In this document: piece by piece, positions 64 to 64,000 of the stretch
Position numbering within the stretch: position 1 is the stretch's first letter
How the letters are laid out: every line of letters begins with the position of its first letter
DNA from: Bacteroidota bacterium
GTDB taxonomy: Bacteria; Bacteroidota; Bacteroidia; Chitinophagales; Saprospiraceae
Reading direction: 5' to 3'
Assembly (NCBI GenBank): GCA_024642665.1
Contig: JAHEAR010000015.1
Location: 18,842-82,841 of the forward strand
Length of the DNA stretch: 64,000 nucleotides
Translations under genes and position numbers: made by a program
The notes under the pieces: model-generated
Seen by the model: the letters and a program-made list of their open reading frames with translations, nothing else
Databases searched by the model: none
What the model was told of the DNA's origin: nothing

Positions 64-1089
64 CTAAAATTCGTCCCATACAACAACATTTTTTCCTATG
101 GATTTTCTGTCCTGCATAAAAGCATGAGCATCTCCTAAATTGTTTTGTGAGAATACCTTACCGATATAAGGCTTAAGTATGCCCTGGCTATATAAATTCA
201 TTACGCCTTCAAAAGAAGCCTCCAGCAGATCCGGTCGATTATCTCCGAGAGCCAACATATTGATACCAATCAGACTTTGCGATTTTCTCAAAAAAGAAAT
301 AGGGGAAAACAACCCAAAGCCAATAACAAGTTTTAGCAGGGGATAAATTCCTTTTTTGCCATTCAGCCCAGCTGCACCAAGACTAATAATACGCCCACCG
401 ACAGCGAGGATAGATTTTGCTTTTTTAAAGGAAGAACCTCCTATATTGTCAAAGACGACATCGACCTGGCCATTAAAATGTTCTTTTACATAATCGAGAT
501 AGGAAGTCTCCTGATGATTGATGACATGGGTAACCCCCATTTGTTTCAAATAATCTGCTTTGTCTTTTCCGCCTGCTACACCAATAACAATACATCTTTT
601 CCATTGAGCAATTTGAATGAGTGCCGTGCCGAGTCCACCCGCCGCTGCATGTATCAATACTTTTTCTCCGGGCACTAGCTGCTGAACGACCATCGCAGAA
701 TAATAGCCGGTTACATTTTGAGTAGCTAACGCGCAACCAGTTCCTACTTCCGTGCCTTCAGGTAAAAAACCTATCGCTCCAGCGTTGGCAACGGCATACT
801 GTGCATACCCTCCGAATCTGGTTAACCCAAATACCCTATCCCCTAATTTAAACTTATCCACATCAGGGGCTAAGGCATCGATGATTCCTTCTACGTCGTA
901 ACCAATGATGCAGGGTAAGGGTGGGCATTCGCGGTACAACCCCTGTCTGGCCATTAAGTCGGCATGGTTTAGACCAAATGCCTTGACTTTAATGCGCACT
1001 TCTCCTGCCATTAGCTCGGGTACAGCCACTTCCTTTAACTCAAAGGAGTGATTGGGTGTGTCGTTTCTGACTAATACATGGGCTAGCAT
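64..1089 (-). CDS. Zinc-free MDR oxidoreductase, VAT-1/quinone oxidoreductase-like
   Basis: A 341-aa medium-chain dehydrogenase/reductase. It has the N-terminal GroES-like fold (about residues 1-120) and a Rossmann domain with the nucleotide-binding motif HAAAGGLGTALIQIA at residues 147-161. The zinc-binding cysteines of alcohol dehydrogenases are absent, and the overall pattern (NHADLMARQGLY, GYDVEGII) fits the NADPH:quinone oxidoreductase / VAT-1 branch, which reduces quinones or enones in the cytoplasm. The substrate cannot be read from the sequence. ATG start. It is divergent from the haloperoxidase-like lipoprotein gene with about 300 bp between them, so it is probably monocistronic. The stop codon is followed within 7 bp by a heptamer repeat array. 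Confidence 0.93.
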   Translation of the reverse strand: MLAHVLVRNDTPNHSFELKEVAVPELMAGEVRIKVKAFGLNHADLMARQGLYRECPPLPCIIGYDVEGIIDALAPDVDKFKLGDRVFGLTRFGGYAQYAVANAGAIGFLPEGTEVGTGCALATQNVTGYYSAMVVQQLVPGEKVLIHAAAGGLGTALIQIAQWKRCIVIGVAGGKDKADYLKQMGVTHVINHQETSYLDYVKEHFNGQVDVVFDNIGGSSFKKAKSILAVGGRIISLGAAGLNGKKGIYPLLKLVIGFGLFSPISFLRKSQSLIGINMLALGDNRPDLLEASFEGVMNLYSQGILKPYIGKVFSQNNLGDAHAFMQDRKSIGKNVVVWDEF

Positions 1090-9837: not shown

Positions 9838-10004
9838 AAAATATTTATAATTGAAGGCTATCTTTTCAAAAGTTGGATATTGGGCTGGAAGGCAGAAGGG
9901 CAGAAAAAAGAAAGAGACGGAAAAGGCAGAAAAAGTATTTAATCTTTCAACTACTGTAATTCTGCTAACCAGAAAATGACTCTTCATTTTTCATTTTTCA
10001 CTTT

Positions 10005-10580
10005 TCACTTGACTTGTCGGTGTCGGAAGCAAGAAACCAGATGATCATTATACATCCCTACTGCCTGCATAAAAGCATACACAATCGTTGATCCGACGAA
10101 GCTGAAGCCTCGATTTTTTAAATCTTTGCTCAGGGCATCACTAATCGCGGAAGTAGCCTGAAAATCCTCAGGAGACTTCAACTTGTTATTAATGGGCTTG
10201 CCATCGACAAAAGACCACAGATGCTGACTGAAATCAATTCCCTGCTCCTGCATATCCAGATATGCTATGGCATTTTTTCTGACTGAATAAACTTTAAGTC
10301 GATTGCGAATAATTCGGGGATCTGTCAGAATTTTTTCCAGTCGTTTATCTGTATAACGTGCATTCTTGTCAGGATCGAGTCCATCAAAAACACTGAAATA
10401 GCCTTCCTGCCGCTTCAGAATGGTGATCCAGCTCAGACCGGCCTGAGCACCATCAAGAATTAACTTGGCATATAATGCTTTGCTATCATGCTCAGGGACA
10501 CCCCAAACCTTATCATGGTAATTGACATAGATTGGATCCGTGCCACACCAATGACAGCGGGTGAGTTGTTGTTTTTTCAT
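10005..10580 (-). CDS. tag: DNA-3-methyladenine glycosylase I
   Basis: A 191-aa base-excision repair enzyme that removes 3-methyladenine from alkylated DNA. The zinc site is complete and has the E. coli spacing: C9 and H22 near the start, H180 and C184 near the end. The substrate-pocket segment reads LDGAQAGLSW (residues 42-51); its acidic residue is Asp43 where E. coli Tag has Glu38, a conservative change. ATG start. Alone on the minus strand, with short-repeat-rich gaps on both sides. Confidence 0.95.
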   Translation of the reverse strand: MKKQQLTRCHWCGTDPIYVNYHDKVWGVPEHDSKALYAKLILDGAQAGLSWITILKRQEGYFSVFDGLDPDKNARYTDKRLEKILTDPRIIRNRLKVYSVRKNAIAYLDMQEQGIDFSQHLWSFVDGKPINNKLKSPEDFQATSAISDALSKDLKNRGFSFVGSTIVYAFMQAVGMYNDHLVSCFRHRQVK

Positions 10581-12372: not shown

Positions 12373-13539
12373 ATGCCTATCTATCATACATTGGGGAAGA
12401 TCCCCCCAAAACGCCACACAATATTTGAAAAACCCGGTGGAGGTATCCATTATGAGCAACTTTTTGGCACCATTGGGTTTGATGGGATGTCTTCTTTACT
12501 CTATGAATTGCACAGACCTACGCAAGTTCGCAGAATAGCCGACCCTATCAACGTAAAGCCCAAAATCGCCGTAGAGCATAATATGAAAGCGATGCTTCTT
12601 CAGGGATTTGAAATACCCAAAGCAGCTGATTGGCTGGATTCTAGAAAGACCCTTTTGGCAAATAAGGATGTGCATATCGGTCTTGCCGCTCCCACTAAAT
12701 CTTTGAGGGATTATTTTTATAAAAATGCTGATGCTGATGAGATGATTTTCGTTCATCGAGGCACCGGGACACTTCGTACTTTTCTGGGTAATATTCCTTT
12801 TGAATATGGTGACTATCTGATCATTCCAAGAGGTATGATCTATCAGATCGATTTTGATACAGAAGATAATCGCCTGCTCTTTGCAGAATCATTTCATCCC
12901 ATCTACACCCCAAAGCGATATCGAAATTGGTTTGGACAAATGCTGGAACATTCTCCATTTTGTGAAAGAGATTATAAACTCCCTGCCGAACTCGAGACCC
13001 ATGACGAAAAAGGGGATTTTATCATTAAGGTAAAGAAACAAGGTTACCTGCATGAATTAGTTTATGCTACACATCCATTTGATGTAGTTGGGTGGGACGG
13101 GTATAATTTTCCTTATGGATTTTCTATTCACAATTTTGAACCGATTACAGGTCGAGTACATCAGCCACCCCCGGTTCATCAGACATTTGAAACAAGTGCT
13201 TTTGTGATATGTTCATTCTGTCCCCGGCTTTATGATTATCATCCAAAGTCAATTCCGGCACCATACAATCACAGCAACATAGATTCAGATGAGATGCTCT
13301 ATTATGTTGATGGTGATTTTATGAGTAGAAATAATATTAAGCCGGGACATATCACCCTGCATCCTGCCGGTATACCACACGGTCCTGCGCCCGGTGCTTA
13401 TGAACGCAGTATCGGTCAGACGGAAACAGAAGAACTTGCCGTGATGATTGATACGTTCGCTCCGCTGATGGTGACGGAACAAGCACTGGCTATTGATGAT
13501 GGGCAGTATTATAAGTCATGGGTGGAGCCGGGTGAGTGA
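12373..13539 (+). CDS. hmgA: Homogentisate 1,2-dioxygenase
   Basis: A 388-aa cupin-fold, Fe(II)-dependent dioxygenase that opens the ring of homogentisate to maleylacetoacetate in tyrosine and phenylalanine breakdown. Candidate metal ligands are H300 (PYNHSNIDSDE), D306 or E307, and H336 in HPAGIPHGP; the segment GWDGYNFPYGFSIHNFEP is also characteristic. It is shorter than the roughly 430-445 aa of proteobacterial and human enzymes. First gene of hmgA-fahA-hpd, all plus strand. Its last two residues (Gly-Glu) and stop codon are written by a heptamer repeat array that continues for 63 bp, so the C-terminus was probably altered by that array. Confidence 0.95.
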   Translation: MPIYHTLGKIPPKRHTIFEKPGGGIHYEQLFGTIGFDGMSSLLYELHRPTQVRRIADPINVKPKIAVEHNMKAMLLQGFEIPKAADWLDSRKTLLANKDVHIGLAAPTKSLRDYFYKNADADEMIFVHRGTGTLRTFLGNIPFEYGDYLIIPRGMIYQIDFDTEDNRLLFAESFHPIYTPKRYRNWFGQMLEHSPFCERDYKLPAELETHDEKGDFIIKVKKQGYLHELVYATHPFDVVGWDGYNFPYGFSIHNFEPITGRVHQPPPVHQTFETSAFVICSFCPRLYDYHPKSIPAPYNHSNIDSDEMLYYVDGDFMSRNNIKPGHITLHPAGIPHGPAPGAYERSIGQTETEELAVMIDTFAPLMVTEQALAIDDGQYYKSWVEPGE

Positions 13540-13602
13540 GGAGTGAGGAGTGAGGAGTGAGGAGTGGTGAGTGGTGAGTGAGGAGTGGTGAGTGGTGAGT
13601 GA
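13531..13602 (+). repeat. GTGAGGA/GTGAGTG heptamer array overlapping hmgA 3' end
   Basis: About ten heptamers (GTGAGTGAGGA, GTGAGGA, GTGGTGA types) start inside the last codons of hmgA and run past the stop. They contain TGA in all three forward frames. A polypyrimidine/AAC-rich stretch (TTTTAAC-like repeats, 13655-13705) fills the space up to fahA. Confidence 0.9.
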
Positions 13603-13723
13603 AACTTTCCTAAAAATTAAACCTTACGCACTAAACATTACACCTATTCACCTATTTCCCTTTTAAACTTTTAACCTTTTAACCCTTAACTTTTCAACCT
13701 TCTACTTTCAACAAAAACAAAAT

Positions 13724-15012: not shown

Positions 15013-16143
15013 ATGTCAGTATCAACACAAAATGAAATAAATCCGGTTGCTGTAGAAGATTTTTTACCGCTCAACGGTACGGATTATGTAGAATTATATG
15101 TGAGCAACTCTAAACAAGCTGCCCATTACTATAAAACAGCTTTTGGTTTTCAGGACTATGCATACCGAGGCCTTGAAACCGGAGAAAAGGATACCGAATC
15201 CTATGTGTTAGCACAAGATAAAATCAGGATAGTCCTTAGCTCGCCGCTTCACAGTGGCACAGCCATAGGAAAGCATATTGACAAACATGGCGATGGAGTC
15301 AAAGTAGTGGCCCTTTGGGTAGATGATGCAACCGATGCATGGAAGCAAACGACATCAAGAGGGGCTAAGTCGTATATGGAACCAACGGTCGAAGAAGATG
15401 ATCATGGTCGCGTAGTTCGATCCGGCATCCATTGCTATGGAGAAGTCGTCCACATTTTTGTCGAACGCAAGGATTATACAGGTGCATTCTTACCGGGGTT
15501 TGCACCGATGAAAACAGACTACAATCCACCTACCGTTGGTCTGAAATATGTAGATCATATGGTAGGAAATGTTGCGCTCGGTCGAATGAACTATTGGGTA
15601 AAATTCTATGAGGACGTCATGGGATTTGATAATATTCTGACTTTTGATGACAAAGATATCTCCACTGAATACACAGCGCTGATGAGCAAAGTAATGAGTA
15701 GCGGAAACGGTTATGTCAAGTTTCCGATCAATGAACCTGCGGCCGGTAAAAAGAAATCACAGGTAGAAGAGTATCTTGATTTTTATGAAGATGAAGGTGT
15801 ACAACATATAGCCGTAGCAACTGATAACATTATTGATACGGTTCAGAAGCTAAAATCACGCGGTGTAGAATTTTTAAGAGTACCTTCTACCTATTATGAT
15901 ACTGTACTTGATCGTGTCGGTCAAATTGATGAAGACCTGAAACCATTAAGTGATCTTGGCATTCTCATTGACCGAGATAATGAAGGTTATCTGCTTCAGT
16001 TATTTACTAAGCCGGTACAATCCAGACCAACCATGTTTTTTGAGATTATCCAACGCAAGGGCGCCAAATCTTTTGGAAAAGGAAACTTTAAAGCTTTGTT
16101 TGAAGCGATCGAAAGAGAGCAGGAGCTGAGAGGAACCTTGTAA
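15013..16143 (+). CDS. hpd: 4-hydroxyphenylpyruvate dioxygenase
   Basis: A 376-aa Fe(II) enzyme that converts 4-hydroxyphenylpyruvate to homogentisate, the substrate of hmgA. Two glyoxalase/VOC-type domains are visible; the C-terminal one carries the iron ligands H182 (VDHMVGN), H265 (VQHIAVAT) and E344 (MFFEIIQR). The C-terminal helix (GKGNFKALFEAIEREQ) that gates the site is intact. Length is normal. ATG start. Third gene of the tyrosine unit; the stop codon is immediately followed by a heptamer array. Confidence 0.97.
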   Translation: MSVSTQNEINPVAVEDFLPLNGTDYVELYVSNSKQAAHYYKTAFGFQDYAYRGLETGEKDTESYVLAQDKIRIVLSSPLHSGTAIGKHIDKHGDGVKVVALWVDDATDAWKQTTSRGAKSYMEPTVEEDDHGRVVRSGIHCYGEVVHIFVERKDYTGAFLPGFAPMKTDYNPPTVGLKYVDHMVGNVALGRMNYWVKFYEDVMGFDNILTFDDKDISTEYTALMSKVMSSGNGYVKFPINEPAAGKKKSQVEEYLDFYEDEGVQHIAVATDNIIDTVQKLKSRGVEFLRVPSTYYDTVLDRVGQIDEDLKPLSDLGILIDRDNEGYLLQLFTKPVQSRPTMFFEIIQRKGAKSFGKGNFKALFEAIEREQELRGTL

Positions 16144-16217
16144 GAGGTGAGAGGTGAGAGGTGAGAGGTGAGAGGTGAGTGGTGAGTGGTGAGTGGTGAG
16201 GAGTGAGGAGTGAGTGT
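16144..16217 (+). repeat. AGAGGTG/AGTGGTG heptamer array after hpd
   Basis: The array begins at the first base after the hpd TAA: five AGAGGTG-type heptamers, then AGTGGTG types, then GTGAGGA types. A more degenerate second block with period 7 (TTAGTGG, TGAGAGG, TCAGTAG, TGAATAG, TGAGTGG, TGAGTAG) is at 16276-16322. The remainder of the 311-bp gap holds the AGGTCTA class. Confidence 0.9.
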
Positions 16218-16383
16218 CCAAGCGCAGCATAAACCCTTTACGCCGACGTAGGAGGTAGTATAGGGCTCAGTGCAAAGTGGTTAGTGGTGAGAGGTCAGTA
16301 GTGAATAGTGAGTGGTGAGTAGCCATACAGTAATTCTTCTTGTGAATATCAATTTTTGCTTCCAGCATGTCGCGCGTCGAACA

Positions 16384-16446
16384 ATCTCAAGTCTAATCAT
16401 CCGAGGTCTCAGGTCTAATCATCTCAGGTCTAAAAATCCGAGGTCT
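16384..16446 (+). repeat. AGGTCTAA-class repeats upstream of the peptidase gene
   Basis: About four degenerate units of roughly 15 bp (TCTCAGGTCTAATCA, TCCGAGGTCT and similar) end 8 bp before the ATG of the following gene. Same class as at 10761-10915 and 60111-60174. Any promoter for the next gene would have to lie in or before this array. Confidence 0.75.
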
Positions 16447-16454
16447 ATAAAAAC

Positions 16455-19305: not shown

Positions 19306-19470
19306 AGTTTAATCATTTTATGGATGTTATTTGGGGTATCTGGAATATTTAAACCTTGAATATTTAGCTATAAAGGATTAAATTAACTAAAGTTTATTTA
19401 ATTCTATCATTGATTAATTGAACTTAATTTAGAATATTCATTCTATCAGGTGATCTAATAAAGCATTTCG

Positions 19471-19685
19471 AATTAGGCAGAATCATGTCGCCATAAACTG
19501 TTCGACAGCTCCAATGCTCTCCTTTTCGTGTCCGCAAGAAGGAAAAGGAGAAAAAGCAAAGAACAGATCGGCCATTGGCAAACCGAATATAAAATAAATG
19601 CTCCGATCCCAAATGGAGTTTTTAGGGCGACGAGGTTTTTGGATACTTTTTTCCGGAAAAAAAGTATCAAATCATCCATTAAAAG
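19471..19685 (+). repeat. Structured intergenic element, copy A
   Basis: About 215 bp sharing blocks with copy B at 62492-62714: GTCGC then AAACTGTTCGA, a hairpin, GCAAAGAA, GAGTTTTTAGGRCGAC, a second hairpin, then CATCCA. Hairpin 1 stem is TCTCCTTTTC/GAAAAGGAGA (19518-19527 with 19542-19551); hairpin 2 stem is GATACTTTTTT/AAAAAAGTATC (19642-19652 with 19658-19668). It sits between the end of the ompA-like gene and the start of pnuC, both minus strand. Short open frames crossing it are not credible genes. Confidence 0.75.
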
Positions 19686-24776: not shown

Positions 24777-24934
24777 AACCTTTTTTCGAACGCAGAGTCG
24801 CAGGGGCGCGGTTTTTAATTTCCTCACGCATCACCATATCACCCAATCACCCGATCACTCCAAAAAATTGTGAAGGATGACTATCAACCTATTTCAGGAT
24901 AAGACACTTTGCCCTTGGTGCTTTGCTCTTTGCC

Positions 24935-26572
24935 CTATGCCTTCACTCCTTTAATGGCATCGATATAACGCTTCATTTCCTGCCTGACTTTAGGGAATAA
25001 GAACAAAAGTCCAATCATATTTGGAAATACCATCGCAAGAATCATTGCATCGGAAAATCGGATAACAGCATCAAGGGTTGCTGAAGCACCAATCACTACA
25101 AATACAAGAAACAAAATCTTATAGGCCATGTCGGCTGTCTTTCCACGACCGAATAGATATTTCCATGACTGAAGCCCATAGTACGACCAGGAAATCATGG
25201 TGGATATCGCAAACAAGACAATCGCAATCGTCAGCACATATGAAAAGTGCGGAATGACACTATCAAAAGCAAGTGTCGTCAGGTCTACCCCACCTACATT
25301 TCCTCCGGTGGCATTCATAACTACATTACCGGCACCATCACCACCATACATAAAGGCGCCATCGCGGTTAAACATAATGATCACGAGTGCAGTCATCGTG
25401 CAGATCACAACCGTATCAATGAATGGTTCGAGAAGTGCTACTAATCCTTCAGAAGCGGGATATCTGGTCTTCACTGCAGAGTGTGCGATAGAAGCTGATC
25501 CGGCACCTGCTTCATTGGAGAACGCCGCTCTGCGAAAACCAACTATCAGGACACCAACCAATCCACCCAATCCTGCTCTTGGTACAAATGCCTCACTAAA
25601 AATCATACCTACCGCATCATCGATAAAATCATAATTGTAAAAGATGATCACCAATGAAGCCAAAATATAAATCAATGCCATGGCAGGCACTAGTTTTTCA
25701 GTAACGGTGGCGATACGTTTGATACCCCCTATAATGACAACACCTACCACAATGGCTAATATGATCCCAACAATAAAACCTGATGCACCACTTGTCATCC
25801 CAAGCATCCCTACGACCTGAGCTGCTGCCTGATTGGATTGAAAGGCATTGCCACCACCAAAAGAAGCACCGACGCAAAGAATCGCAAAAAGAACAGCCAG
25901 AACTTTTCCAAACGTACCGGCATTGATTTCAGCAAAACCTCTTTTGAGGTAATACATAGGACCTCCGTAAACGGTTCCATTGATATCAATATCTCTATAC
26001 TTAACCCCAAGGGTACACTCTACAAATTTTGTAGACATACCAAGCAATCCACAGATGATCATCCAAAAAGTAGCCCCCGGACCGCCGATGGCAATCGCTA
26101 CAGCTACACCAGCAATATTTCCTAACCCAACAGTACCGGAAACCGCCGCAGTCAATGCCTGAAAGTGATTGACCTCCCCTGTTTGAGACTCATCTTTGAT
26201 GGTCCCTTTTACGTCCCCTTCAAAAACGATCGCACTCTCTTGTGCTGAGTGATGATCAAGGTGATCAAATTTTCCCCGTACCACCTGGATAGCCAAAGGA
26301 AATCTCCGGATATTAACAAAAGAAAAATAAAGCGTAAAAAAAGCTGCACCACCAACAAGCAATAGCACTACAATTGGGATACTTAGTCCATCTCCTATGG
26401 AAATTGAATAAAACACTAATCCTTCCCACCAATCTGCAATCGGTAAAAACCAATCATTGATTCTTTCATCCAGTCCTTTCGTTGCCTGCGCAGTCTCTTG
26501 CGCAAATAGTAAAAAAGGGAGTATCGAAAATGCGGCAGCTAACAGGCCTTTCAAAGGGGATTTAGTCATCAT
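24935..26572 (-). CDS. Alanine/glycine:Na+ symporter (AGCS family)
   Basis: A 545-aa inner-membrane symporter with about 11 membrane segments after an N-terminal signal-like hydrophobic stretch. Family-typical segments include GTVGLGNIAGVAVAIAIGGPGATFWM (residues about 145-170, part of the transport core), KYRDIDINGTVYGGPMYYL, and SNEAGAGSASIAHSAV. Family members import alanine or glycine with sodium. ATG start (MMTKS). Monocistronic on the minus strand, with a hairpin in its upstream gap. Confidence 0.94.
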   Translation of the reverse strand: MMTKSPLKGLLAAAFSILPFLLFAQETAQATKGLDERINDWFLPIADWWEGLVFYSISIGDGLSIPIVVLLLVGGAAFFTLYFSFVNIRRFPLAIQVVRGKFDHLDHHSAQESAIVFEGDVKGTIKDESQTGEVNHFQALTAAVSGTVGLGNIAGVAVAIAIGGPGATFWMIICGLLGMSTKFVECTLGVKYRDIDINGTVYGGPMYYLKRGFAEINAGTFGKVLAVLFAILCVGASFGGGNAFQSNQAAAQVVGMLGMTSGASGFIVGIILAIVVGVVIIGGIKRIATVTEKLVPAMALIYILASLVIIFYNYDFIDDAVGMIFSEAFVPRAGLGGLVGVLIVGFRRAAFSNEAGAGSASIAHSAVKTRYPASEGLVALLEPFIDTVVICTMTALVIIMFNRDGAFMYGGDGAGNVVMNATGGNVGGVDLTTLAFDSVIPHFSYVLTIAIVLFAISTMISWSYYGLQSWKYLFGRGKTADMAYKILFLVFVVIGASATLDAVIRFSDAMILAMVFPNMIGLLFLFPKVRQEMKRYIDAIKGVKA

Positions 26573-53016: not shown

Positions 53017-53868
53017 ATGGACGTTCATGACATCAATGAAGCTGAAGAATCATTTAAGAGAGCCATTAAAAAAGGGCCGGGCAAAAATCTGCTGATCATA
53101 GGAATCTCACTTTTACTCTTGATCATGTTCAGACCATGGGTACAAATCGGGGCCGGAGAAAGAGGTATTGTGCTCAACTTTGGGGCGGTGCAGGAACATG
53201 TACTAGGGGAAGGTATGCATTTCAGAATACCTATCATGCAGGAAGTTAAGATCATGGATGTTAAAGTGCAAAAAGTTCAAACAGATGCCTCTTCAGCTTC
53301 CTCTGACTTACAGGATGTAACCCTTTCCGTAGCGCTCAACTATCATATCATTCCAGATAAAGCCAATCACGTGTATCAGAACATTGGTGTTCATTTCAAA
53401 GAACGGATCATCGATCCTGCGATTCATGAGGTGACGAAAGCTGTCTCTGCGGAATATACTGCAGAGGAACTCATTACCAAACGCCCCCAAGTCAGTGAAC
53501 AAATGAAGGAGGCGCTCAGCGAAAAACTTTTAGCCTCAAACATTTTCGTGGATGCTGTATCCATTGTCACCTTCAGTTTTTCTGAAGTTTTTATGGATGC
53601 GATTGAAGCCAAACAAACTGCCGAACAGCACGCTTTGAAAGCTAAACGAGATTTGGACAGAATTCGAATTGAAGCGGAACAAACCATTGCTGCTGCCACG
53701 GCGGAGGCGGAGGCTTTGCGATTACAAAAAATGAATATCTCACCTGATTTGATTGAGCTCAGAAAGATTGAGGCAAATTTGAAAGCTATTGAAAAGTGGA
53801 ACGGTATTTTACCGAATGTCACCGGTTCCGGAGCCATTCCATTTATTGGGGTGGATCAGAAAAAGTAG
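53017..53868 (+). CDS. Prohibitin/HflC-like SPFH protein
   Basis: A 283-aa membrane-anchored protein: one N-terminal membrane segment (about residues 24-42), an SPFH/band 7 domain (GERGIVLNFGAVQEHVLGEGMHFRIP, then ALNYHIIPDKANHVYQNIG) and a long C-terminal helical stretch rich in Ala, Glu and Lys (about 190-255) that mediates oligomer rings. Relatives scaffold membrane domains and modulate FtsH-type proteases. ATG start. Its TAG stop is immediately followed by twenty consecutive heptamer repeats. Confidence 0.93.
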   Translation: MDVHDINEAEESFKRAIKKGPGKNLLIIGISLLLLIMFRPWVQIGAGERGIVLNFGAVQEHVLGEGMHFRIPIMQEVKIMDVKVQKVQTDASSASSDLQDVTLSVALNYHIIPDKANHVYQNIGVHFKERIIDPAIHEVTKAVSAEYTAEELITKRPQVSEQMKEALSEKLLASNIFVDAVSIVTFSFSEVFMDAIEAKQTAEQHALKAKRDLDRIRIEAEQTIAAATAEAEALRLQKMNISPDLIELRKIEANLKAIEKWNGILPNVTGSGAIPFIGVDQKK

Positions 53869-53931
53869 TGAGGATTGAGTGGGCAGTGGTGAGTGGTGAG
53901 TGGTGAGTGGGCAGTGGTGAGTGGTGAGTAG
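53869..53931 (+). repeat. Nine GTGAGTG-type heptamers directly after the prohibitin stop
   Basis: Exactly nine 7-bp units (TGAGGAT, TGAGTGG, GCAGTGG, TGAGTGG three times, GCAGTGG, TGAGTGG, TGAGTAG) start at the first base after the stop codon and run into the TTTAGCG array without a break in the 7-bp register. Confidence 0.95.
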
Positions 53932-54008
53932 TTTAGCGTTTAGCGTTTAGCGTTTAGCGTTTAGCGTTTAGCGTTTAGCGTTTAGCGTTTAGCGTTTAGC
54001 GTTTAGCG
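53932..54008 (+). repeat. (TTTAGCG)11 perfect heptamer array
   Basis: Eleven identical TTTAGCG units, 77 bp, in phase with the nine preceding heptamers. Each unit has TAG; with period 7 the stop falls in all three frames. AATTACG-type repeats follow (about 54018-54045). The remaining part of the gap to the channel gene shows nothing I recognise. Confidence 0.97.
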
Positions 54009-54184
54009 AAAAATAAAAAATTACGAATTACGAATATGTGAATTACAATAAAAGACGTTATACAAATACAAAGTTCGAAGAGCAGCGTGTAAACTTTTTT
54101 CGTAACCTCTTAAGCCCTGAAACGCCATCACCTTACCACAAATATATCCATCACAAAATGAATCATTACCAATAATCCAATGTC

Positions 54185-57467: not shown

Positions 57468-59882
57468 TTAAAATGACCAGATACCCAATGCCTGCTGAAG
57501 TACTTCTTCCATTTTATCAACAAACATAAATTCTACCCCTTTGAGGTACTCCGGTTTGATCTGATCCACATGTCGCTTATTCGCTTTGGATAAAATAATC
57601 TGTGTAATACCGGCCCTTTTGGCTGCTAATACTTTCTCCTTTATACCTCCGACCGGCAAGACTTTACCGCGCAGCGTAATCTCTCCACTCATAGCCAGAT
57701 GGGCTTTGACCGGCTTATGATTGAAAGCAGAAGCTATGGAAGTCAACATCGTCACCCCTGCAGATGGTCCATCCTTTGGGATAGCGCCTTCCGGTACGTG
57801 AATGTGAATATCTGTAGACTCAAAAGTAGCTGCATCAATACCCAGTGACTCCGCATGTGCTTTAATAAAACTCAAGGCCGTTGTAGCAGATTCCTTCATG
57901 ACATCGCCAAGATTTCCGGTCAGCGTCAATTTACCTTTACCGGGACTCAAACTGGACTCAATAAAAAGAATATCACCTCCGACTCGCGTCCAGGCCAAAC
58001 CAACTGCTACACCACTTGTATGCTGCTCTGTATATAATGTCTGATCGTGTCTCTCGGGACCAAGAATATCAGGAAGTTGTGATTTCAAAATCGTCTTTGC
58101 ATACTTTTCTTCCATGGCGACGCTTTTGGCAACAGACCTCATCACGGAGGCTATTCTACGCTCTAAACTTCTTACACCTGATTCTCTGGTATAACTTTCA
58201 GCCATCTCGCGCAGCACATCATCCTTAAGCTTAACATCCGTTGGTTTCAAACCATGTTCCTTGCGCTGGCGAGGTACCAGATGTTTTTTGGCAATTTCAA
58301 TTTTTTCCTCTGTAGAGTATCCACTGATATTGATAATTTCCATTCGATCCAAAAGCGCCGGCTGAATGGTATTTAATGAATTAGCTGTAGCAATAAACAT
58401 GACCTTTGAAAGGTCATATTCAAGCTCAAGGTAATTATCATAAAAAGTGGAATTTTGCTCAGGATCCAGTACTTCCAACAATGCAGAAGAGGGATCACCT
58501 CTAAAATCCTTACCCACTTTATCAATTTCATCCAGAATAAAAACCGGATTCGAAGCACCTGCCTTTTTTACAGACTGAATGATTCGTCCGGGCATAGCCC
58601 CAATATATGTTTTTCGATGCCCTCTTATCTCTGATTCATCATGCAAGCCACCAAGGGACATTCTGATAAACTTGCGTTTTAATGCGCGTGCAATCGACTT
58701 ACCTAAGGACGTCTTACCAACTCCCGGAGGGCCTACCAGACATATGATAGGTGCCTTCATATCGCCTTTCAATTTCAAAACAGCTAGATGTTCCAGAATT
58801 CGCTCCTTTACTTCCTCCAACCCATGATGATCTTCATCCAGAACTTTCTGGACATTTTTCAAATCAAAATTATCCTTTGTATAATGTTCCCAGGGAAGAT
58901 CGAGCATCAACTCAAGATAATTTAATTGAAGGCTGTATTCAGAAACCTGTGGATTAATTCTTCTGACTTTTGTGATCTCGCGATCAAAAGCATCCTGCAC
59001 AGTTTTACTCCATTTCTTTTTCTTACCACGCTCAACGAGATTTCTGATATCCGACTCCTGAGGATTCTGACCGAGCTCTTCCTGGATTGTTTTTAACTGC
59101 TGGCTTAAAAAATAATCTCGTTGTTGCTTTTCGATATCCACACGTACTTTCGAATCAATCTGGTTTTTAAGTTCCAGCATTTGCATCTCATTGTGCATTA
59201 GCTTGAATACTTCATGTGCCAGCGATTCTAAATCTTCGATCTCTAACAATTCCTGTTTTCTAACGATGTCAATATTCAGATTGGAGGAGATAAAACCGAG
59301 CAGATGAATATCGCTTTTGATATTGCGAATCATAACCACTGCCTCTGAAGGGATATTCGGAGACAGCTTGATAATCTTCTCTGATAAATCACGAATCGAT
59401 GCAAGGATCGCATCAAATTCGAGTTTGCCTTTTGGCTGGATATAATTTCTTGGCTCGACTCTGGCCACCATGTGTGGTTCTACAGAATCCATGGCCAGCA
59501 TATTAAATCTTGATCTACCTTGCAGGATGGCGGTGATCGATCCGTCCGGCATTTTAAGCACCTTTAAAATTCTCGCCAGCGTACCCACCGTGTATAAATC
59601 TTCTACTTCAGGGTCTTCCGTCTCGACATCCTTCTGGGCCAGCACAGCGATCTGCTTATTGGTATCATGGGCCTTGCGAACGGCCTTCATAGACTTCTCT
59701 CTTCCTACCGTAATCGGAATGACGATACCTGGGTATAAAACTGTATTCTTAAGCGCCAGAACAGGTATGAGTTCCGGCATATCTTCTCCACCATGCGGCT
59801 CATCATCCTCATCTACCGAAATAATCGGCATAAACTCAGTTTCCTCCACCGCACTACTATCCATTATAAGATCTTCAAACAT
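57468..59882 (-). CDS. lon: ATP-dependent protease Lon
   Basis: An 804-aa LonA protease, normal length. N-terminal substrate-binding LAN domain (about residues 35-240), AAA+ module with Walker A GPPGVGKTS (about 382-390) and Walker B PVFILDEIDKV, then the C-terminal protease domain with catalytic Ser707 (PKDGPSAGVTM) and Lys750 (GGIKEK). It degrades misfolded and regulatory proteins in the cytoplasm. Starts possible at GTG 59900, ATG 59882 and ATG 59864; 59882 chosen. The acidic N-terminal tail (VDEDDEPHGGED) precedes the conserved core. Single-gene unit. Confidence 0.97.
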   Translation of the reverse strand: MFEDLIMDSSAVEETEFMPIISVDEDDEPHGGEDMPELIPVLALKNTVLYPGIVIPITVGREKSMKAVRKAHDTNKQIAVLAQKDVETEDPEVEDLYTVGTLARILKVLKMPDGSITAILQGRSRFNMLAMDSVEPHMVARVEPRNYIQPKGKLEFDAILASIRDLSEKIIKLSPNIPSEAVVMIRNIKSDIHLLGFISSNLNIDIVRKQELLEIEDLESLAHEVFKLMHNEMQMLELKNQIDSKVRVDIEKQQRDYFLSQQLKTIQEELGQNPQESDIRNLVERGKKKKWSKTVQDAFDREITKVRRINPQVSEYSLQLNYLELMLDLPWEHYTKDNFDLKNVQKVLDEDHHGLEEVKERILEHLAVLKLKGDMKAPIICLVGPPGVGKTSLGKSIARALKRKFIRMSLGGLHDESEIRGHRKTYIGAMPGRIIQSVKKAGASNPVFILDEIDKVGKDFRGDPSSALLEVLDPEQNSTFYDNYLELEYDLSKVMFIATANSLNTIQPALLDRMEIINISGYSTEEKIEIAKKHLVPRQRKEHGLKPTDVKLKDDVLREMAESYTRESGVRSLERRIASVMRSVAKSVAMEEKYAKTILKSQLPDILGPERHDQTLYTEQHTSGVAVGLAWTRVGGDILFIESSLSPGKGKLTLTGNLGDVMKESATTALSFIKAHAESLGIDAATFESTDIHIHVPEGAIPKDGPSAGVTMLTSIASAFNHKPVKAHLAMSGEITLRGKVLPVGGIKEKVLAAKRAGITQIILSKANKRHVDQIKPEYLKGVEFMFVDKMEEVLQQALGIWSF

Positions 59883-60020
59883 AAAATTCAATAAGTTCAC
59901 AAAAATGTAGCTTTTCTAACGATTTGAGAGGGTCAATTACCATTCCACAGCCGGAATTCTGCCAATAGAGCTAAAAACGGACAATTTTGTATGACATTTC
60001 GGCAGGATATGAGCGATGGG

Positions 60021-60174
60021 GTGAGGAGTGAGGAGTGATTTAAAGAAAATAGTCTTTTGTAAAACGAAACTCTTCAAATACCTAAATAACCATGAAAACT
60101 TTTAACCAAAAGACCTGAGAGTTTAAAACCTGGGGGTTTAAGACTTGAGATATTTAGACCTGGGACCTGAGAGG
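60021..60174. repeat. Mixed short repeats between lon and the topoisomerase gene
   Basis: The 445-bp gap contains a short GTGAGGA array (60021-60038) and inverted copies of the AGGTCTA class (AGACCTGAGA, GACCTGGGACCTGAGAG; 60111-60174). At 60200-60235 there is a TTAAC-rich stretch. No gene is recognised. Confidence 0.65.
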
Positions 60175-63417: not shown

Positions 63418-63939
63418 ATGATAATAGATATATTCTTAGTTTTCTTTATCATAACCGGTTTCTGGCTTGGCTTTACGAAAGGTGCCGCGGGTACACTTCT
63501 TCAGGTAACCACCTATTTAATTGCCTTGGTTTTAACATTAATTATTTCGCCCTGGCTGGCTAAATTCATCTCCCAAACGCTGCCAATTGGCAAGTTGTTT
63601 GCCCTCATTTTTGGAACGATTGGTGTCTTCATCCTGCTAAGCTTCATTCTATATTCCCTGACGAAGCGATTGGATAACCGCTTCCAAAAAAACAACCGGA
63701 CTACACCGGGAAGAATTCTTGGAGGCATCGTCATGTTGCTTTTTTGTATCCTGCTTTTCGGTCTTTTACTTGGTGTAATCAACCAATTTAATGCGATCAA
63801 AACAGAAACAAAAGAATCTAGTTATACTTACGTTTATCTTCAACCAATACCAGCACATGCAAAAACTTTTGTGGAAACATTCAAACCGGTGTTCCGAAAC
63901 TATTGGGAAATGATGGAAGAAACTATAGAGGAGAAGTGA
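63418..63939 (+). CDS. cvpA: CvpA family membrane protein
   Basis: A 173-aa inner-membrane protein with four hydrophobic segments (about residues 1-18, 26-46, 58-82 and 101-122) in the CvpA pattern (IIDIFLVFFIITGFWLGFTKGAAGTLLQ). CvpA relatives affect biofilm formation and envelope stress in Proteobacteria; the role here is unknown. ATG start. After the TGA stop comes a short GTGAGGA-like stretch and then AATTGCGAATTAC and GGCGGAAAGG (63983-63992) repeats to the window end. Confidence 0.88.
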   Translation: MIIDIFLVFFIITGFWLGFTKGAAGTLLQVTTYLIALVLTLIISPWLAKFISQTLPIGKLFALIFGTIGVFILLSFILYSLTKRLDNRFQKNNRTTPGRILGGIVMLLFCILLFGLLLGVINQFNAIKTETKESSYTYVYLQPIPAHAKTFVETFKPVFRNYWEMMEETIEEK

Positions 63940-64000
63940 AGAGTGAGGAATTGAAAATTGCGAATTACAAATGTATGAAATAGGCGGAAAGGCTAACCAA

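Follow-up and report, generated by a model that had tools for sequence, protein, structure and literature searches.

Tandem arrays of 7-bp units often begin at the stop codons of genes in this Bacteroidota genome (GCA_024642665.1; 3.71 Mb, 72 contigs), and every strand-skewed array found there, in this genome and in a sister species, carries its G-rich strand in the sense direction. From this, the end of translation seems to influence where heptamer repeats are written or kept.

The arrays of the window, that is, the whole 64-kb stretch of DNA analysed, are collected in Table 1. The five arrays that a preliminary description had placed at gene stops are all present, and at their claimed places apart from small offsets. 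The overlap with the hmgA stop and the start at the base following the prohibitin gene are as described; the hpd array overlaps its stop instead of starting at the next base, and the array beside the oxidoreductase stop lies at 3-5 bp and not at 7 bp. At the cvpA stop, only two weak units surround the stop codon (lag-7 score 7). The arrays at the methyladenine glycosylase gene (score 18.5) and at the Na/Ala symporter gene (24935-26572, minus strand, PF01235; score 6.5) are new relative to that description. The array upstream of lon had been named as a misfit, and instead obeys the outward rule set out below. Pfam backs the identification of homogentisate dioxygenase (hmgA, with an HgmA_N domain, PF20510), of the Band_7/prohibitin-like protein, of the ADH-type, zinc-dependent oxidoreductase and of CvpA (PF02674), and places a fumarylacetoacetase gene between hmgA and hpd. 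For the hpd product it gives glyoxalase/dioxygenase domains only, the specific name being that of the preliminary description. An Rfam scan of the window returned no family at the gathering score. Among the matches listed for HmgA, the closest are from Bacteroidota, including Agaribacillus, an uncultured Lewinella and Saprospiraceae.

Table 1. Repeat arrays of the window and the gene ends beside them.
Array	Coordinates	Strand	Relation to gene
Heptamer array, GGTGAGTGAGGAGTG...	13531-13602	+	Overlaps TGA stop (13537-13539) of hmgA (12373-13539); G-rich strand sense
AGAGGTG/GTGAGTG array	16140-16214	+	Overlaps stop of hpd (15013-16143) by 4 bases
Second G-rich heptamer array	16276-16320	+	132 bp beyond hpd stop; orientation as the first
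TGAGTGG-type array, TGAGGATTGAGTGGG...	53869-53929	+	Begins at next base after TAG of Band_7/prohibitin gene (53017-53868)
GTTTAGC x11	53931-54008	+	Serial with the TGAGTGG-type array beyond Band_7/prohibitin stop
AATTACG array	54019-54035	+	Last of the series 53931-54035 beyond Band_7/prohibitin gene
Short array GAAGTGA-AGAGTGA-GG	63933-63948	+	Includes TGA stop (63937-63939) of cvpA (63418-63939)
TAGTGAGTGGTCAG (2 x 7) array	1-60 (or 1-58)	-	3-5 bp beyond stop of oxidoreductase gene (64-1089, minus strand); G-rich strand sense
AAGTGAAAAGTGAAAA... array	9983-10010	-	Overlaps stop of methyladenine glycosylase gene (10005-10580, minus strand); purine-rich strand sense
Decayed array GGCAAAG-AGCAAAG-CACCAAG-GGCAAAG	24907-24934	-	Flush with TAG of Na/Ala symporter gene
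GTGAGGA array	60021-60038	+	120 bp upstream of lon (57468-59900, minus strand); G-rich strand antisense to lon, outward
C/T-rich (sense) 7-8 bp repeats	13641-13701	-	Upstream of fahA start (13724); G/A-rich strand antisense, outward from fahA

To the window were added 60 stretches of the same genome, giving a sample of 999,599 bp (1.0 Mb) with 729 genes. These were called by our own script from open reading frames and codon usage, which misses some short genes and places starts roughly; stop positions are exact wherever the called frame is correct. Arrays were detected as identity runs at a fixed lag with a single threshold. By majority overlap, 55 lag-7 arrays are intergenic and 2 are coding, compared to 17 and 1 at lag 8 and 3 and 4 at lag 9; lags 4-6 and 10-12 yield at most 5 arrays in total each at this threshold. 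Excluding the 6 of 57 lag-7 arrays with |G-C| below 4 as unskewed leaves 51 classified arrays. Most of the stretches begin at contig starts, which inflates the density of arrays and should leave their polarity unaffected. Since 7 of the 57 arrays lie less than 500 bp from a contig start (in six stretches), it is likely that arrays interrupt short-read assemblies and that their number is underestimated.

Placement and orientation were compared with a null model of random intergenic placement and random orientation (300 simulations). Within 10 bp of a stop lie 21 of the 51 skewed arrays (null mean 3.9), and in every one of these the sense strand is the G-rich one (null mean 1.9), counts that no simulation reached. 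The anchoring at stops and the strand bias proposed from the window alone thus hold against random placement over 1.0 Mb. Leaving out the window, the polarity is found at 16/16 stop arrays of this genome and at 40/40 in both species, hit-picked stretches included. Genes bearing stop arrays are ordinary-looking; 16 of the 21 in this genome were scanned with Pfam, and 2 were without a family.

The sister species is the only other genome returned by a genus search and is treated as such here (HmgA 91% identical; 68-76% DNA identity over the syntenic stretch). It was sampled in 39 stretches (636 kb), 19 of them chosen by motif or synteny hits. Pooling the two species gives 48 array-stop pairs at offsets of -40 to +12, of which 45 have |G-C| of at least 4 and are all G-rich in the sense direction (45/45); the G-C difference of the remaining 3 is near zero. 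The offsets of the 45 skewed arrays peak between -10 and +10 (39/45). Between -20 and +10, there are 43 G-rich sense arrays and no C-rich one, and between +10 and +20 the counts are 4 and 1. The period is also visible in the bulk of the sequence, the period-7 autocorrelation in the first 50 nt past stops being 0.312 against 0.269 and 0.275 at the neighbouring lags. It is still faintly raised (0.290) when strong arrays are excluded, and no rise is seen in the 50 nt before starts. The unit types at stops are TGAGTGG, GCATGGR, ACGGTTA and AGTGAAA, with GAGACCT also common, whose stop arrays have no G skew. A fixed outward order of these families was considered and rejected, the pairwise counts being small or mixed except for GAGACCT before GCATGGR (8/9).

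Several features of the anchored arrays bear on a passive filter, under which new arrays would take either orientation by chance and persist where harmless, that is, in the stop-containing orientation after stops and, before starts, where the strand is neither Shine-Dalgarno-like nor rich in start codons. Coding DNA nearly free of arrays (2/57) fits such a filter, as does the TGAGTGG unit, which has stops in every frame while its complement is open. The stop codons at arrays themselves are biased: TAA is used at 11/48 arrays against 598/1155 genes and TAG at 19/48 against 292/1155, so that TAG and TGA together account for 37/48 against 557/1155. However, arrays starting 0-12 bp past a stop are G-rich sense in 17/17 cases, although either orientation would spare the protein there. 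Units that are free of stop codons on both strands also follow the rule (8/8 arrays at stops). Finally, filtered arrays should be scattered along the entire spacer, yet they are concentrated in a spike at the stop. The simple form of the filter is already contradicted, and we consider a passive filter quite improbable as the cause. The same stop-free units dispose of a backup-stop role, which the preliminary description had offered together with the filtering of random insertions: neither such a role nor a filter that supplies stops can explain a rule that units without stops obey, and filtering of random insertions proves insufficient where both orientations are harmless.

Two general sources of strand asymmetry were tried and rejected. 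With arrays masked, the 60 bp that follow stops have a sense GC skew of only +0.01 to +0.03, so base composition does not account for the polarity at stops. Replication-strand bias does not account for it either, as 7 of the 27 stretches with skewed arrays hold both polarities and, in convergent regions, where an array could lie at either of two stops, 24/26 arrays are closer to the stop they point away from.

Beyond the stops, the prevailing 5'-to-3' direction of the G-rich strand is away from the nearest gene end. Overall, 43 of the 51 arrays of the genome sample point outward in this sense (null 25.7), and the 8 inward ones lie away from stops. With the two species pooled, the outward arrays in tandem regions are 32/43 of those nearest a stop and 11/13 of those nearest a start, and in divergent regions 10/13 arrays are closer to the start they point away from. 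Where a start is the nearest end, the G-rich strand is antisense in 14/16 arrays of this genome, mostly tens of bases off; a start within 10 bp is the nearest gene end for only 1/51 arrays, against 4.8 expected. Octamer arrays (of the GGTGATGG, GGCAGAAG and GGTTAAAA types) lie preferentially upstream of starts, with 16/17 of those nearest a start outward and 6/11 of those nearest a stop inward. The DNA before starts is itself C-rich in the sense direction when arrays are masked (skew -0.15 near the start and about -0.05 to -0.1 further out), so general composition may account for part of the upstream polarity. Of the arrays up to 150 bp from a start, 32 are C-rich sense and 10 more are G-rich sense; TAnnTTTG, which we take to be the Bacteroidetes -7 promoter element, lies between array and start in 5 of the 32. 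Arrays occur within 60 nt of 2/18 tRNA genes, both outward and neither flush, which implies that translation is not needed for the polarity, and perhaps only for the tight anchor.

The anchoring and orientation extend to other genomes. In the sister species, 11 of 65 arrays were excluded and 54 classified, 44 outward and 10 inward; within 10 bp of stops, 23/23 are G-rich sense, 20 of them in hit-chosen stretches and 3 in others. In a genome from another family of the same order (400 kb sampled), 32 lag-7 arrays are intergenic and 1 is coding, with 13/13 G-rich sense at stops and, overall, 22 of the 30 classified arrays outward and 8 inward. At the level of the phylum, loci were taken from the 18 of 395 genomes holding GTRAGTS x3, the genome of the window being one of the 18. 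In this sequence-deduplicated set, selected by a single motif and with genes called from ORF length only, outward arrays make up 30/40 of the total and 14/15 of those no further than 12 bp from a stop, where one of the 10 inward arrays lies. The hmgA neighbourhoods of 80 other Bacteroidota (957 kb, one record titled Calditrichia) hold only 7 lag-7 arrays; 5 of them are both intergenic and skewed, and 4 of the 5 point outward. Outside our sample of the first genome, 8 loci gave 9 arrays (one locus having none over the threshold), 2 of them inward, including one 16 bp from a stop. In five genomes of one family, belonging to two genera, CTGAGTG/CTGAATG tandem heptamers give 37 to 114 matches per genome.

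Comparison of the two species points to rapid turnover. The preliminary description had proposed to compare the same genes with and without arrays in related strains, and such pairs exist in both forms: among 80 reciprocal best ortholog pairs between the two samples (median identity 82%), both species have a stop array in 2 and only one species in 8. The window follows this pattern, the arrays at the stops of hmgA, the oxidoreductase gene and the methyladenine glycosylase gene being missing in the sister species and the place of the hpd array being kept with altered units. Elsewhere too, some orthologous stops bear differing units when inspected by eye. In 9/10 array-bearing pairs, the C-termini of the two proteins differ in position by no more than 3 residues, the tenth pair having unaligned tails of 19 and 1; as a rule, then, the array did not create the stop, and array-made stops were rejected as the usual case. 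Arrays are thus acquired, lost and overwritten at a fast pace, and the stops that bear them usually predate them. In one pair of orthologous stretches, neighbouring genes carry stop repeats whose units, by eye, often differ between the species; this region is possibly a regional hot spot for stop repeats.

Insertion aimed at stop codons is a further reading of these comparisons, with heptamer blocks copied there from other loci by a mobile element, a reverse transcriptase or a REP-type transposase. Unit families recur across the genus and the commonest motif, GTGAGTGGTGAGTG, is rare elsewhere in the family, being found in 3/61 family genomes, two of them in this genus, so units do spread within the lineage; the spacer after hmgA, which measures 184 bp here and 110 bp in the sister species, where the array is missing, is likewise consistent with added DNA. 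Against this, inspection of the 48 arrays by eye revealed neither terminal structures nor shared flanks, many unit types have the anchor in common, and the genome has one Y1_Tnp match over the cut-off, at most a candidate for a REP-type transposase. Targeted insertion is therefore very improbable in our judgement.

Arrays might alternatively act in the transcript. REP/BIME elements are short palindromes past stop codons that can pair in inverted orientation. The present arrays resemble them in their position past stops and in forming inverted pairs where two face each other; unlike REP palindromes, their units are direct heptamers. A selected element of the 3' untranslated region would, as REP elements do, block exonucleases or end transcripts by means of G-rich RNA past the stop, folded as a two-layer quadruplex or as a long hairpin with a facing array. 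Inverted repeats are found at 9/25 array-bearing convergent stops compared to 59/264 without arrays; N runs were checked for among the 9 only, and one of them is such a run. Passages of Rehm et al. (PMC4692102) also state that G4-type repeats contain transcript starts or ends more frequently than control repeats do. Yet the AGTGAAA and GAGACCT units have no GG runs, the arrays are poorly conserved between the sister species, and such an element is silent on the antisense-G arrays found before starts. Terminator-like hairpins occur at similar rates with (12/46) and without (45/149) arrays, which also led us to reject arrays as a replacement for terminators. On balance we regard the 3' element as improbable. 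As a separate observation, facing heptamer arrays at both ends of a spacer form large imperfect inverted repeats in five of the stretches, and some of these show, by eye, several mirrored layers of differing units.

A selected insulator would have the advantage of covering the polarity at both gene ends with a single rule. Read inward, the arrays are C-rich and G-poor with pyrimidine-C dimers, resembling Rho-utilisation sites, and could keep antisense or read-through transcription out of the gene from both sides. The genome of the window, that of the sister species and the one from another family all encode a Rho RNA-binding domain, and rut sites are described as C>G stretches with YC dimers in the part of PMC9160355 that treats them. 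Array-bearing stops are somewhat more often convergent than other stops (19/44 against 198/699, Fisher p 0.04, with only the second set restricted to spacers of at least 60 bp). On the other hand, the YC spacing scored in that part of PMC9160355 is 9-13 bases and not 7, an insulator has no need for a flush start at the stop codon, and arrays at only 48 of 1155 stops (hit-picked stretches of both species included), differing between sister species, are unlike a needed terminator. We accordingly hold the insulator to be unlikely.

The rule is strict at stops in the two species and in the other family and does not depend on the unit, so its cause must sense gene ends and strand, be largely indifferent to the unit and have a sharp edge at the stop. 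This directs attention to transcription and to where translation ends, and away from motif-binding proteins and stop-codon filters. Translation ends at the stop while transcription continues, which favours slippage linked to transcription. As our best, though tentative, explanation we propose a transcription-linked expansion of repeats in the DNA that immediately follows the last codon to be translated, coding DNA being purged of them; the mechanism that we infer runs as follows. Ribosomes shield nascent RNA. Replication slippage would give rise to arrays and lengthen them in DNA that is transcribed and untranslated. Up to the stop codon, the nascent RNA would be covered by ribosomes; beyond it, naked purine-rich RNA could re-anneal with the template, so that the G-rich non-template strand would stay unpaired and would readily fold and slip by 7-8 bp. 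The sense-G orientation would then be favoured and arrays would grow from the stop onward, the sequence of the unit being of little weight. Arrays in coding DNA would be removed by selection, and elsewhere they would be near-neutral with fast turnover.

The outward G-rich arrays upstream of starts could reflect the same slippage, with untranslated RNA running the opposite way from bidirectional promoters. Such promoters are reported to be numerous in bacteria in passages of PMC10268837 and PMC12825309, so the slippage model could extend to upstream arrays; general background on collisions and R-loops is given in part of PMC13296718. These arrays lie tens of bases from starts, and for them the model needs the extra assumption of divergent transcription. 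Regularity along arrays is much the same in successive thirds from the stop (0.846, 0.828 and 0.842), although simple directional growth might leave a gradient. The mechanism extending 3' ends that the preliminary description had listed may survive in this DNA-level form. A broader reading, which we hold as possible and rather doubtful, is a general directional repeat-writing process present in several phyla, starting from the end of translation or the outward flank of a promoter and producing purine-rich arrays whose 7-8 bp units may have nearly any sequence and whose G-rich strand leads outward. What began as a descriptive oddity becomes a testable question of how transcription-translation coupling shapes mutation, for which the stop arrays are a natural set of loci.

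Several known repeat systems resemble these arrays. STRR sequences are degenerate tandem heptamers of filamentous cyanobacteria, and we know of no stop-codon anchor for them. By this definition, they have in common with the present arrays degenerate tandem heptamers in intergenic DNA, and differ from them in unit and in phylum, the best matches listed for HmgA being Bacteroidota. The preliminary description knew of no precedent for anchoring at stops; it had already been published for Xanthomonas and Nostoc. There, in passages of Rehm et al. 2015 (PMC4692102), G-rich heptamers (GGGAATC and GGGGA(C/T)T) are preferentially sense within 50 bp of a stop and antisense upstream of ORFs, and its Discussion states that no function could be assigned to them. 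As far as those passages go, the two systems have in common a 7-bp unit, a dispersed and mostly intergenic distribution, both orientations relative to gene ends, host genes of no functional class, and variable length and sequence between the same genes of relatives. They differ in that the Xanthomonas and Nostoc units are GGG-rich and quadruplex-capable, whereas here the units are diverse and many have no GGG runs. A preference within 50 bp is replaced here by a flush anchor and a polarity at stops of 45/45, and octamers join near starts in a Bacteroidota host. The polarity itself is thus already published, and what is added is Bacteroidota as a third phylum, diverse units, octamers, flush anchoring and a near-absolute polarity at stops.

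TAACTGA direct repeats are described in Beggiatoaceae, Cyanobacteria and some Bacteroidetes in passages of MacGregor 2015 (PMC4679880). According to these, they likewise have a stop codon inside a heptamer unit, are mostly intergenic with some overlapping ORF ends, and occur in Bacteroidetes next to other heptamers. In the main species, however, a single fixed unit lies forward and just upstream of starts, for which translational regulation was suggested; the units here differ, and an immediately adjacent start is rare. In a literature search for stop-anchored heptamers, with thin coverage of subscription literature, these two papers were the only relevant ones as far as the retrieved parts of the sources go, and a term search of PMC7015867 gave no matches on the heptamer question.

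Two other repeats of the window were noted. A dispersed repeat occupies positions 19469-19679, where at least 23 of the 68 matches listed between the window and the sister species fall, and its core (19616-19679) contains the near-perfect palindrome GATACTTTTTTCCGGAAAAAAAGTATC. At 16385-16451 and 60113-60150, repeats of 15-22 bp are built on AGGTCT / AGACCTGAG; they are akin to the GAGACCT heptamer family, which elsewhere begins at stops.
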